A stretch of 64,000 bases of DNA from Cupriavidus sp. MP-37. GTDB lineage: Bacteria; Pseudomonadota; Gammaproteobacteria; Burkholderiales; Burkholderiaceae. Shown here one piece after another: positions 61,335 to 64,000 of this stretch. The notes under the pieces were generated by a model. The model searched no databases. It had not been told where the DNA came from and saw nothing but the letters and a program-made list of their open reading frames with translations. A program made the position numbers and the translations under genes. Positions within the stretch are counted from its first letter, which is position 1, and each line of letters begins with the position of its first letter. The DNA is taken from NCBI RefSeq assembly GCF_020618415.1, contig NZ_CP085344.1, positions 1,387,001-1,451,000 of the forward strand, in the 5' to 3' direction.

Positions 61335-62864
61335 ATGTGCGGTATCGTCGGTGTGGTTTCAGCCACGCCTGTCAACCAATTGATTTACGACAGCCTGCTG
61401 TTGTTGCAACATCGCGGACAGGATGCTGCCGGCATCGCCACCGCCAACGGCAGTACCTTCCACATGCACAAGGCCAACGGCCTGGTGCGCGATGTCTTCC
61501 GCACCCGCAATATGCGCGGCCTGCCGGGCACCGCAGGCATCGGCCAGGTGCGCTACCCGACCGCCGGCTCGGCCTCGAGCGAGGAAGAGGCGCAGCCGTT
61601 CTACGTCAACGCCCCCTACGGCGTCATCCTGGCGCATAACGGCAACCTGACCAACTGGCAGCAGCTGCGCGAGGAAATGTTCCGCCGCGACCGCCGCCAC
61701 ATCAACACGCACTCGGACACCGAGGTGCTGCTGAACGTGCTGGCCGACGAGCTGCAGCGCGCCAGCAACGGCATGGCGCTCGATCCGGAAACGATCTTCA
61801 AGGCCGTGGCGGGCATGCACCGGCGCGTGCGCGGCTCGTACGCGATCGCGGCGCAGATCGCCGGCTACGGCATGCTGGCCGTGCGCGACCCGTTCGGCAT
61901 CCGGCCGCTGTGCCTGGGCAGCGTCGAGACGCCTACCGGCAAGGAATGGATGGTGGCCTCCGAGTCCGTGGCGCTGGAAGGCATCGGCTACAAGTTCGAA
62001 CGCGACGTGGCGGCGGGCGAGGCCATCTTCATCGACCTCGACGGCAAGCTCTACAGCAAGCAGTGCGCCGACAACCCGGTGCTGACGCCGTGCATCTTCG
62101 AATACGTCTACCTAGCCCGCCCGGATTCTTGCATCGACGGCGTGCCGGTCTACGACGCGCGCCTGCGCATGGGCGACTACCTCGCCGAGAAGATTCGCCA
62201 GGAAGTGTCGGCCGGCGATATCGACGTGGTCATGCCGATCCCGGACAGCAGCCGCCCGGCCGCGATGCAGGTGGCCAACCGCCTGGGCGTCAATTACCGC
62301 GAAGGCTTCTTCAAGAACCGCTATGTCGGCCGCACCTTCATCATGCCGGGCCAGGCGGTGCGCAAGAAGTCGGTGCGCCAGAAGCTCAACGCCATGGGCG
62401 TGGAGTTCAAGGGCAAGAACGTGCTGATCGTCGACGACTCGATCGTGCGCGGCACCACCTCGTTCGAGATCGTGCAGATGGCGCGCGACGCCGGCGCCAA
62501 CAAGGTGATCTTCGCCTCGGCCGCGCCGCCGGTGAAGTTCCCCAACGTGTACGGCATCGACATGCCGACCCGCAGCGAGCTGGTGGCGCACAACCGCACC
62601 CACGAAGAGATCGCCAAGATCATCGGCGCGGACAAGCTGGTGTACCAGGACGTCGAGGCGATGAAGCAGGCGGTGCGCGACATCAACCCCGCGCTGAAGG
62701 ACTTCGATGCGTCGTGCTTCGATGGCCGCTACGTTACCGGCGATATCGACGAGGCTTACCTGGACCGCCTGGAAACGGCGCGCAGCCAGGCCGACCGCGA
62801 CGGCACCGGCGCCGACACTGAGCGCTCGTCGCTGCACCTGCAGCGCTCCGGCGGCAACGAGTAA
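61335..62864 (+). CDS. purF: Amidophosphoribosyltransferase
   Basis: A 509-residue enzyme catalysing the first committed step of purine synthesis (PRPP + Gln to phosphoribosylamine). The nucleophile is Cys2 (MCGIVGVVS), exposed after Met removal. The N-terminal Gln amidotransferase domain shows LLLLQHRGQDAAGIAT and ILAHNGNLTNW. The PRPP loop in the C-terminal domain is VLIVDDSIVRGTTSFEIVQMAR. ATG at 61335 is required to place Cys at position 2. It ends the folC-purF group; a GC hairpin (62902-62924) follows its stop. Confidence 0.97.
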   Translation: MCGIVGVVSATPVNQLIYDSLLLLQHRGQDAAGIATANGSTFHMHKANGLVRDVFRTRNMRGLPGTAGIGQVRYPTAGSASSEEEAQPFYVNAPYGVILAHNGNLTNWQQLREEMFRRDRRHINTHSDTEVLLNVLADELQRASNGMALDPETIFKAVAGMHRRVRGSYAIAAQIAGYGMLAVRDPFGIRPLCLGSVETPTGKEWMVASESVALEGIGYKFERDVAAGEAIFIDLDGKLYSKQCADNPVLTPCIFEYVYLARPDSCIDGVPVYDARLRMGDYLAEKIRQEVSAGDIDVVMPIPDSSRPAAMQVANRLGVNYREGFFKNRYVGRTFIMPGQAVRKKSVRQKLNAMGVEFKGKNVLIVDDSIVRGTTSFEIVQMARDAGANKVIFASAAPPVKFPNVYGIDMPTRSELVAHNRTHEEIAKIIGADKLVYQDVEAMKQAVRDINPALKDFDASCFDGRYVTGDIDEAYLDRLETARSQADRDGTGADTERSSLHLQRSGGNE

Positions 62865-62920
62865 GCCGCGCGCCGCGCGCCCGTGCGTTGACGGATGCGA
62901 AGCCCGGCCGTAACATGGCC

Positions 62921-62985
62921 GGGCGTCGATTTGATAGTCAGCTTGCGGACGCGGGTCCAGCCCGAAACAGCTAAAGAGATGGGGG
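62921..62985 (+). ncRNA. SAM-II (SAM-alpha) riboswitch upstream of metZ
   Basis: The sequence reads gggcgtcGATTTGAtagtcaGCTTGCggacgc, a linker, then cgaaacaGCTAAAgagatgggg. It matches the SAM-II consensus in order: a P1 stem (GCGTC 62923-62927 with GACGC 62948-62952), the GATTTGA box, the GCTTGC box and the 3' GCTAAA box that forms the pseudoknot. SAM-II switches respond to S-adenosylmethionine and control methionine synthesis genes, which fits metZ. The assignment rests on remembered consensus features. Confidence 0.85.
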
Positions 62986-63068
62986 TTGCAACGTTTGCCG
63001 GGGCGCGCAGTGCTTGCGCAACTGGCCGCCCGACCGCCACAGCCCGCCGAAGGCCTCCGCAGAACAGC

Positions 63069-63107
63069 AAGCCCGTCGATCCGACCATCCGATCGCACGG
63101 GCTTTTT
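63069..63107 (+). terminator. Intrinsic terminator between riboswitch and metZ
   Basis: AAGCCCGT (63069-63076) pairs with ACGGGCTT (63097-63104), extended inward by CGAT/ATCG, and is followed by TTTTTT. It lies 70 bp before the metZ ATG, after the riboswitch, so it probably acts as the conditional off-switch. Confidence 0.9.
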
Positions 63108-63177
63108 TCATGGCCGGCCGCCTTGCCGCGGCAGGCCACAACCATCGCATTCGCGCGGGTACGACCGCGCCACCAGC

Positions 63178-64000
63178 ATGAACCAACCGCTCAACCCCGA
63201 ATCGCTCGGCATCGATACCCTCGGCGTGCGCGCCGGCACGCTGCGCAGCGAGTTCATGGAGCACTCCGAGGCCATGTACCTGACCTCGAGCTTCTGCTTC
63301 AACAGCGCCGCCGAGGCCGCCGAGCGCTTTGCCAACTCGGAAGAGGGCTACACCTATTCGCGCTTCACCAACCCGACCGTATCGATGTTCCAGTCGCGCC
63401 TGGCCGCGTTGGAAGGGGCGCAGGCGTGCATGGCGACCGCCTCGGGCATGAGCGCGATCCTGTCGGTGGTGCTGTCGTCGATGCAGGCCGGCGACCACCT
63501 GGTCAGCTCGCGCGCGATCTTCGGCTCGACCATGACGCTGTTCAACAATATCTTCGGCAAGTTCGGCGTCGAGACCACCTTTGTCGATCCGACCGACCTG
63601 GAAGCGTGGCGTGCGGCAGTCCGCCCGAACACCAAGCTGTTCTTCCTGGAAACGCCGTCGAACCCGCTGACCGAGGTGGCTGACATCGCGGCGGTGGCGG
63701 ACATTGCCCACGATGCCAACGCGCTGCTGGTGGTCGACAACTGCTTCTGCTCGCCCGCGCTGCAGCAGCCGATGAAGTTCGGCGCCGACATCGTGGTGCA
63801 CTCGGCCACCAAGCATATCGACGGCCAGGGCCGCGTGCTGGGCGGCGCGGTGCTGGGCACGCACGACTTCATCATGGGCAAGGTGTTCCCGTTTGTCCGC
63901 ACCGCCGGGCCGACGCTGTCGGCTTTCAATGCCTGGGTGCTGCTCAAGGGCATGGAGACGCTGGCGATCCGCATGGAGCGCCATTCGGCCAGCGCGCTGG
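63178..64000 (+). CDS. metZ: O-succinylhomoserine sulfhydrylase, 3' end outside the window
   Basis: The first 274 residues of a cystathionine gamma-synthase-type PLP enzyme; the frame is open at the window edge. It begins MNQPLNPESLGIDTLGVRAGT. YTYSRFTNPTVSMFQSRLAALEGAQACMATASGMSAI contains the cofactor-phosphate and substrate contacts. LLVVDNCFCSPALQQP carries the PLP Asp and VHSATKHIDGQGRVLGG the PLP Lys. This pattern, and the place after purF, fit MetZ, which makes homocysteine from O-succinylhomoserine and sulfide. MetB-like activity cannot be excluded. The SAM-II switch upstream supports a methionine role. Confidence 0.92.
   Translation, partial: MNQPLNPESLGIDTLGVRAGTLRSEFMEHSEAMYLTSSFCFNSAAEAAERFANSEEGYTYSRFTNPTVSMFQSRLAALEGAQACMATASGMSAILSVVLSSMQAGDHLVSSRAIFGSTMTLFNNIFGKFGVETTFVDPTDLEAWRAAVRPNTKLFFLETPSNPLTEVADIAAVADIAHDANALLVVDNCFCSPALQQPMKFGADIVVHSATKHIDGQGRVLGGAVLGTHDFIMGKVFPFVRTAGPTLSAFNAWVLLKGMETLAIRMERHSASAL

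Follow-up and report, generated by a model that had tools for sequence, protein, structure and literature searches.

The purF–metZ intergenic region

The window, by which we mean the entire stretch of 64,000 nucleotides of Cupriavidus sp. MP-37 DNA that was analyzed, ends within a metZ gene. The gap between purF and this gene holds on the plus strand, in order, a promoter-like pair, a compact aptamer (62923-62979), a linker and an intrinsic terminator (Table 1). The downstream gene is metZ, as the original prediction had it: the product is an O-succinylhomoserine sulfhydrylase (NF006003, 719.8 bits, cut-off 522). Likewise, the three boxes GATTTGA, GCTTGC and GCTAAA and the GCGTC/GACGC stem that had been claimed are all present, as is a terminator with six Ts, which had been placed about 70 bp before metZ and was found 69 nt before its ATG. 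For the segment 63067-63104 the folding energy is -20.3 kcal/mol (z -5.1), which 0 of 200 shuffles equalled, and the terminator is not among the entries of a simple pattern scan of the window. As RNA, the boxes GAUUU, CUUGC and GCUAAA at 62928, 62942 and 62970 agree with the SAM_alpha consensus and comprise what we take to be the residues contacting SAM.

Table 1. Features of the metZ leader and of the two further copies of the element in the same genome
Feature	Position	Strand	Evidence and remarks
purF	61335..62864	+	Upstream gene; TIGR01134, 509.6 bits, cut-off 350
Promoter-like TTGACG-17-TAACAT, sigma-70-like	62888..62916	+	Pattern scan; conserved boxes
P1, 5' strand (GCGTC)	62923..62927	+	Covariation with 62948-62952 in 104 distinct rows
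L1 box GATTTGA	62928..62934	+	GAUUUGA is the SAM_alpha consensus in the alignment
P2, 5' strand (TCAGCTTGC)	62938..62946	+	Covariation with 62970-62979; contains GCTTGC at 62941-62946
P1, 3' strand (GACGC)	62948..62952	+	Covariation with P1 5' strand
Small extra L3 hairpin (GGG/CCC)	62953..62963	+	Alignments of relatives, where its length varies; absent in most members
P2, 3' strand (GCTAAAGAGA)	62970..62979	+	Covariation; contains the GCTAAA box at 62970-62975
Intrinsic terminator, hairpin and six Ts	63069..63108	+	Folding energy, conservation in genus; hairpin 63069-63104, Ts 63103-63108
metZ start	63178..64000	+	Gene extends beyond the window end; NF006003 matched over its entire length on locus L031
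metX copy	L242:680-774 (C1:165679-165773)		R1 38.9 bits; long L3, terminator-like hairpin
metK variant	L243:562-640 (C1:184861-184939)		R1 28.3 bits, R2 66.6 bits; directly before metK

Across 28 sequences from the genus, 49 of the 54 aptamer positions are invariant, along with 33 of 42 in the terminator (63067-63108) and 22 of 29 in the promoter, against 7 of 86 in the linker. The aptamer and terminator of another record titled Cupriavidus (L094) are nearly identical to those of the window. The TTGAC box stands 40 nt before GATTTGA in all 28 genus sequences. Of its occurrences in the 110 nt scanned at each of 114 listed loci, 66 precede GATTTGA by 38-52 nt and 11 lie at other distances. Because TTGAC sits at this fixed distance, transcripts probably begin at P1, near 62923, a start deduced from the conserved promoter boxes. 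This would agree with the SAM-II transcripts described by Corbino 2005 (PMC1273637), which begin near P1.

The -10 box is itself flanked by an inverted repeat, GCCCGGCC-GTAACAT-GGCCGGGC (62902-62924), with a hairpin energy of -20.7 kcal/mol. By eye, it is retained in nearly all the 28 genus sequences, and a hairpin at the end of purF or an operator are candidate readings.

Phyletic spread and membership in the SAM-II class

A strict pattern of the core of the element recovered at least 117 loci among the matches listed, 80 of them with titles; it gives no frequencies. Alpha-, beta- and gamma-proteobacteria all have the core: the titles include Bradyrhizobium, Bosea, Microvirga and Rhodoplanes alongside many beta- and some gamma-proteobacteria. 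Searched for by genome, a core pattern was found in 28 of 60 genomes of the genus and 53 of 150 of the family (the source genome included in both), as against 0 in the control columns shown for the reversed pattern. We also built a covariance model (R1) from 27 diverse members, one of which is the window. It matched the window with 61.3 bits (genome-wide E 2e-12), a score that is partly so by construction. It further matched 112 of 150 genomes of the order, 59 of 60 of the genus and 41 of 299 of the phylum, with a copy of at least 58 bits, the metZ type, in 28 of the 60 genus genomes.

Both helices are borne out by covariation, for which, as for the terminator and pairing counts below, relatedness is uncorrected. 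Of the cells of P1 and P2 in 104 distinct rows, 98.0% are paired; sliding the partners brings this down to 22-67%. The covariation score of 0.200 compares with 0.063 in shuffles. Since the pattern loci have fixed core letters, covariation can be read at the free positions only. Thus, the outer of the five P1 pairs is GC in 85 rows, AU in six, CG in five, UA in five and other in three, and the fourth is CG in 93, UA in nine and GC in two. The free pair of P2 (U62938-A62979 in the window) is UA in 42, AU in 22, UG in nine, CG in seven, GC in six, GU in two and other in 16. In a wider set, this pair is Watson-Crick in 113 of 169 cases (63.8 expected; reached in 0 of 2000 permutations); the next pair outward gives no such signal (36 of 169, 45.6 expected). 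One of the sequence sets was drawn from the window plus 95 loci that we picked out of 250.

The genes behind 245 elements of the window type, many of them from close relatives, are metZ in 144 cases, metX in 17, metK in four and others in 73, with seven sequences too short to tell. The window element thus shows the P1 stem, the pseudoknot of L1 with the 3' strand of P2, the boxes and a methionine gene downstream, and falls short of the RF00521 cut-off. By homology we regard its SAM-II class identity as close to certain, and we infer SAM to be its ligand. Homology and covariation, together with the gene context, give good support to the SAM-II identity put forward in the original prediction.

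On the phyletic range of the class, a few members outside the alpha-proteobacteria are described in Corbino 2005 (PMC1273637), SAM_alpha is confined to two alpha-proteobacterial orders in Leyn 2014 (PMC4239095), and Meyer 2009 (PMC2704228) has SAM-II commonest in alpha-, beta- and gamma-proteobacteria.

Some relatives carry two SAM-II-like cores in tandem, on one strand and within 320 nt. We observed 14 such pairs in the loci L032-L148 (L054, L060, L061, L063, L073, L079, L080, L081, L097, L110, L112, L136, L137 and L144), some with a terminator between both cores. Behind SAM-II-like elements in L004, L009, L014, L234, L255, L264 and L278 lies a small protein starting with MFDC or MYDC; the L009 protein matched no Pfam family up to E 1.

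Rfam matches and the strand of RF02424

At the curated cut-offs the window matches no Rfam family. The original prediction had proposed a SAM_alpha (RF00521) covariance hit as a check, and this the window itself fails: a relaxed scan aligned 30 nt of the plus strand with 13.4 bits, as against a cut-off of 36. We suspect the L3 hairpin to be the cause of this low score, and the curated cut-off is an operational limit rather than a structural one. A SAM_alpha search of the whole genome found nothing, with the control genomes equally silent, and the model gave 0 hits in the four genomes searched in the family; SAM-V (RF01826) is not among the matches up to E 10 within 62860-63200. Among 18 core loci scanned, five exceed the SAM_alpha cut-off: two from alpha-proteobacteria (L045, L036), two from beta-proteobacteria (L032, L060) and one from a metagenome-assembled genome titled Pirellulaceae (L097). 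The remaining 13 comprise two Paraburkholderia loci above the RF02424 cut-off on the opposite strand and 11 above neither, including four from alpha-proteobacteria.

RF02424 is also the best match of the window in the relaxed scan, on the minus strand and over its full length (52.3 bits, E 7.3e-11, below the cut-off of 70, which L043, L047, L177 and L182 exceed). Among 150 order genomes (the source genome included), SAM_alpha has places in 65, in 26 of them above the cut-off, and RF02424 has 30 places in 29 genomes. Opposite-strand overlap with a SAM_alpha place is seen for 18 of these 30 and same-strand overlap for 0; the other 12 coincide with no SAM_alpha place. The strand can be judged from wobble pairs, with 16 G-U as against three A-C cells favoring the metZ (plus) strand, and the promoter and T-tract lie on this strand, not on the minus strand modelled in RF02424. 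The simplest reading of RF02424, in our view, is that it models a SAM-II leader and its terminator in reverse complement.

RNAs from this family have been reported. Bp2_Cand287 gave an RT-PCR product and precedes methionine genes in most genomes (Khoo 2012, PMC3521395); RIT77, 135 nt by its coordinates, is listed as Bp2_287 and equated with BTH_s31 in a review (PMC10987360), and BTH_s31 is given as 143 nt in PMC4035088. For the terminated leaders we predict lengths of 135-146 nt (L177-L194) and 112-113 nt (L195-L201), to be set beside the published RNAs by length.

Terminators in relatives and the proposed switching step

A terminator lies within 260 nt in 77 of the 117 listed pattern loci. 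By title we assigned 71 of the 117 to a class: 21 alpha-, 40 beta- and 10 gamma-proteobacterial loci, of which four, 34 and seven, respectively, have the terminator, and 17, six and three have none reported by this finder. The class counts exclude the other 46 loci, of which 37 had no title shown and nine bore other titles; 32 of these 46 have a terminator.

To examine the pairing of aptamer and terminator we used 61 short-leader members, in which the terminator starts within 40 nt, with 386 other terminators from the same loci and 50 scrambled probes as controls. The duplex energy with AGCUAAAGCG, the 3' strand of P2, averages -9.3 kcal/mol as against -5.9 in the 386 controls, and runs of at least six Watson-Crick pairs with this strand occur in 22 of 61 members and 16 of 386 controls, a result matched by none of the scrambled probes. 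For the P2 5' strand the corresponding counts are 14 of 61 and 11 of 386 (matched by one of 50 probes). The P1 3' strand is slightly enriched (7/61 vs 20/386; five of 50 probes) and the P1 5' strand is not (2/61 vs 52/386; 13 of 50). As the P2 strands are complementary to the terminator in these short-leader members, P2 formation and antitermination would be mutually exclusive there, a relationship that does not extend to the window.

Once the 3' arm of the terminator is omitted, each of the 28 genus sequences gives a predicted pairing of its 5' arm with the aptamer (mean probability 0.50-0.84). The best candidate antiterminator joins GCUUGC 62941-62946 with GCAAGC 63067-63072 and is retained, by eye, in 27 of the 28. 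Against shuffled terminators, this aptamer–terminator pairing has a z of -0.35 in the window, where 161 of 500 shuffles are as good, and a mean z of -0.42 (range -2.23 to 0.38) in the 28 genus sequences, which is not beyond shuffles. A weak trend is seen in 33 related Burkholderiaceae leaders, with a mean z of -1.10 overall and of -1.02 for the P1 5' strand, positive in 10 of the 33. Because the pairing is no better than in shuffles, the switching step in the genus of the window is one that we infer.

A different antiterminator, GTTGC 62985-62989 with GCAAC 63018-63022, had been suggested in the original prediction. The pair exists in the window, but it is conserved in just two of 28 genus sequences, and we discarded it.

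Further copies and the wider methionine regulon

The genome holds two further copies of the element, one before metX and a diverged variant before metK (Table 1). A second model (R2) was built from 17 metK-type variants, the copy of this genome included, and in 17 variant sequences P1 and P2 also covary (score 0.268 vs 0.096). Among 30 R2 loci fetched, 13 lie before metK, two before metZ and 11 before other genes, with four left unread by the pattern; R2 also matches the metZ type. In eight metK loci no Rfam family matched at the variant up to E 0.05, and up to E 10 the copy in this genome gave only isrH, at 7.6 bits on the other strand. The variant, SAM-II-like and without an Rfam match, may have a different affinity or ligand.

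Judging by eye from the first residues, we also observed the same element in front of metH-like genes (L005, L022, L030, L052, L085, L227, L248), metN-like genes (L010, L020, L037, L065) and aspartokinase-like genes (L035, L124).

Proposed mechanism and its alternatives

We consider it likely that the metZ leader is a SAM-II-class riboswitch acting as an OFF switch of metZ by early termination of transcription. Transcription from the leader's own promoter would start at P1. With SAM abundant, the P1/P2 pseudoknot would be stabilized and the terminator hairpin would form, releasing a leader RNA of about 186 nt; with SAM scarce, the aptamer strands would instead pair with the terminator and metZ would be transcribed. 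Such transcriptional OFF control would best fit the features of the leader. The original prediction had likewise favored control through the terminator, which is the likeliest mode and is not unusual for SAM-II (PMC1273637, PMC9373788). Putative terminators behind many members, with a proposed OFF-switch role, are described in Corbino 2005 (PMC1273637), and SAM-II termination yielding a leader RNA of about 100 nt is predicted before metZ of S. meliloti in Scheuer 2022 (PMC9373788).

The terminator might nevertheless work without being driven by SAM. It would then be a leaky attenuator that acts constitutively and gives rise to a small RNA, with SAM acting on, for instance, stability or promoter activity. 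We hold this to be unlikely, though that no antiterminator exceeds shuffles in the genus of the window speaks for it, as does the terminator of S. meliloti metA, which is described without a predictable SAM-II-driven antiterminator (PMC9373788). Against it stand the match of the P2 strands to the terminator in the short-leader relatives and the joint conservation of aptamer and terminator while the linker drifts. If, on the other hand, the aptamer hid the ribosome site and blocked translation of metZ, as is known for a compact metagenomic SAM-II (PMC9373788), one would have to account for a metZ start about 198 nt behind the 3' strand of P2 with a strong terminator in between, and we find this very unlikely.

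We give equally little credence to the idea that the SAM-II fold here binds a different ligand, for instance SAH: variants with changed ligands exist in other riboswitch classes, for example from SAM-I to spermidine (PMC10853860), but the boxes of the window agree with the SAM_alpha consensus and the A. tumefaciens SAM-II RNA rejects SAH (PMC1273637). Most improbable of all is that the functional product is a minus-strand small RNA, with the SAM-II likeness of the plus strand a by-product. The full-length 52.3-bit match to RF02424, the four loci above its cut-off and the very name of that family would suggest it; the wobble count of 16 to three for the plus strand, the promoter and T-tract on that strand, and the coincidence of 18 of 30 RF02424 places with SAM_alpha places in opposite orientation, and of 0 in the same orientation, all speak against it.

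Implications and relation to known systems

Taken together, the results allow a broader reading: a large, overlooked SAM-II regulon of beta-proteobacteria, split in print between the metXZ element and a mis-stranded small RNA family, which would include a metK aptamer of the form GAKUUAA .. ACAACUUGC .. GCUAAAGCG, and in which the P2 strands of beta- and gamma-proteobacteria would double as antiterminator strands. We offer this joint reading tentatively, being slightly more inclined to doubt than to accept it as a whole. Riboswitches of this kind are already known; the novelty would lie in this branch, in the way it has been misfiled and in the metK variant. If correct, two published orphan RNAs would join a known riboswitch class, the strand of an Rfam family would be corrected, and beta-proteobacteria, in which metK is listed without a known methionine regulator (Leyn 2014, PMC4239095), would gain control for metZ, metX and probably metK. 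Whether SAM-II P2 strands serve as antiterminators would also become directly testable.

Among known systems, the closest is SAM-II itself (metA motif, SAM_alpha, RF00521), which shares with the window element P1, the P2 pseudoknot, the three boxes, a start near P1, the association with methionine genes and, behind many members, a terminator (PMC1273637). Unlike RF00521 members, the window element scores 13.4 bits (cut-off 36), carries the extra L3 hairpin and comes from a beta-proteobacterial host. The SAM-II element of S. meliloti metZ (Scheuer 2022, PMC9373788) is alike in class, gene and predicted SAM-driven termination but is alpha-proteobacterial, and it is likened by description, not by sequence. 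The tandem SAM-II-like aptamers of some relatives resemble the SAM-II/SAM-V tandem of Ca. Pelagibacter, with the difference that neither the window nor the metK variant has a SAM_V match.

The window element is probably the metXZ RNA of Leyn 2014 (PMC4239095), with whose text description we compared it. That element is reported as new, with six conserved regions and a terminator, in 35 beta-proteobacterial genomes; it lies before metX or metZ and has a possible pseudoknot followed by the terminator. The window element and the metX copy occupy this same position, before metX or metZ of a beta-proteobacterium and with a terminator, and two Methylophilales relatives (L032, L057) have the core of the window before metZ, as reported there for Methylophilales. 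The published account differs in presenting the element as new, not as SAM-II, and in proposing an antiterminator from regions 3 and 4. In the open-access literature searched, we found no link of metXZ or Bp2_287 to SAM-II, which is weak evidence of absence. Bp2_287 (RF02424; Khoo 2012, PMC3521395), finally, covers the same DNA with a full-length match and likewise precedes methionine genes, but is modelled on the strand opposite to that of the window element.
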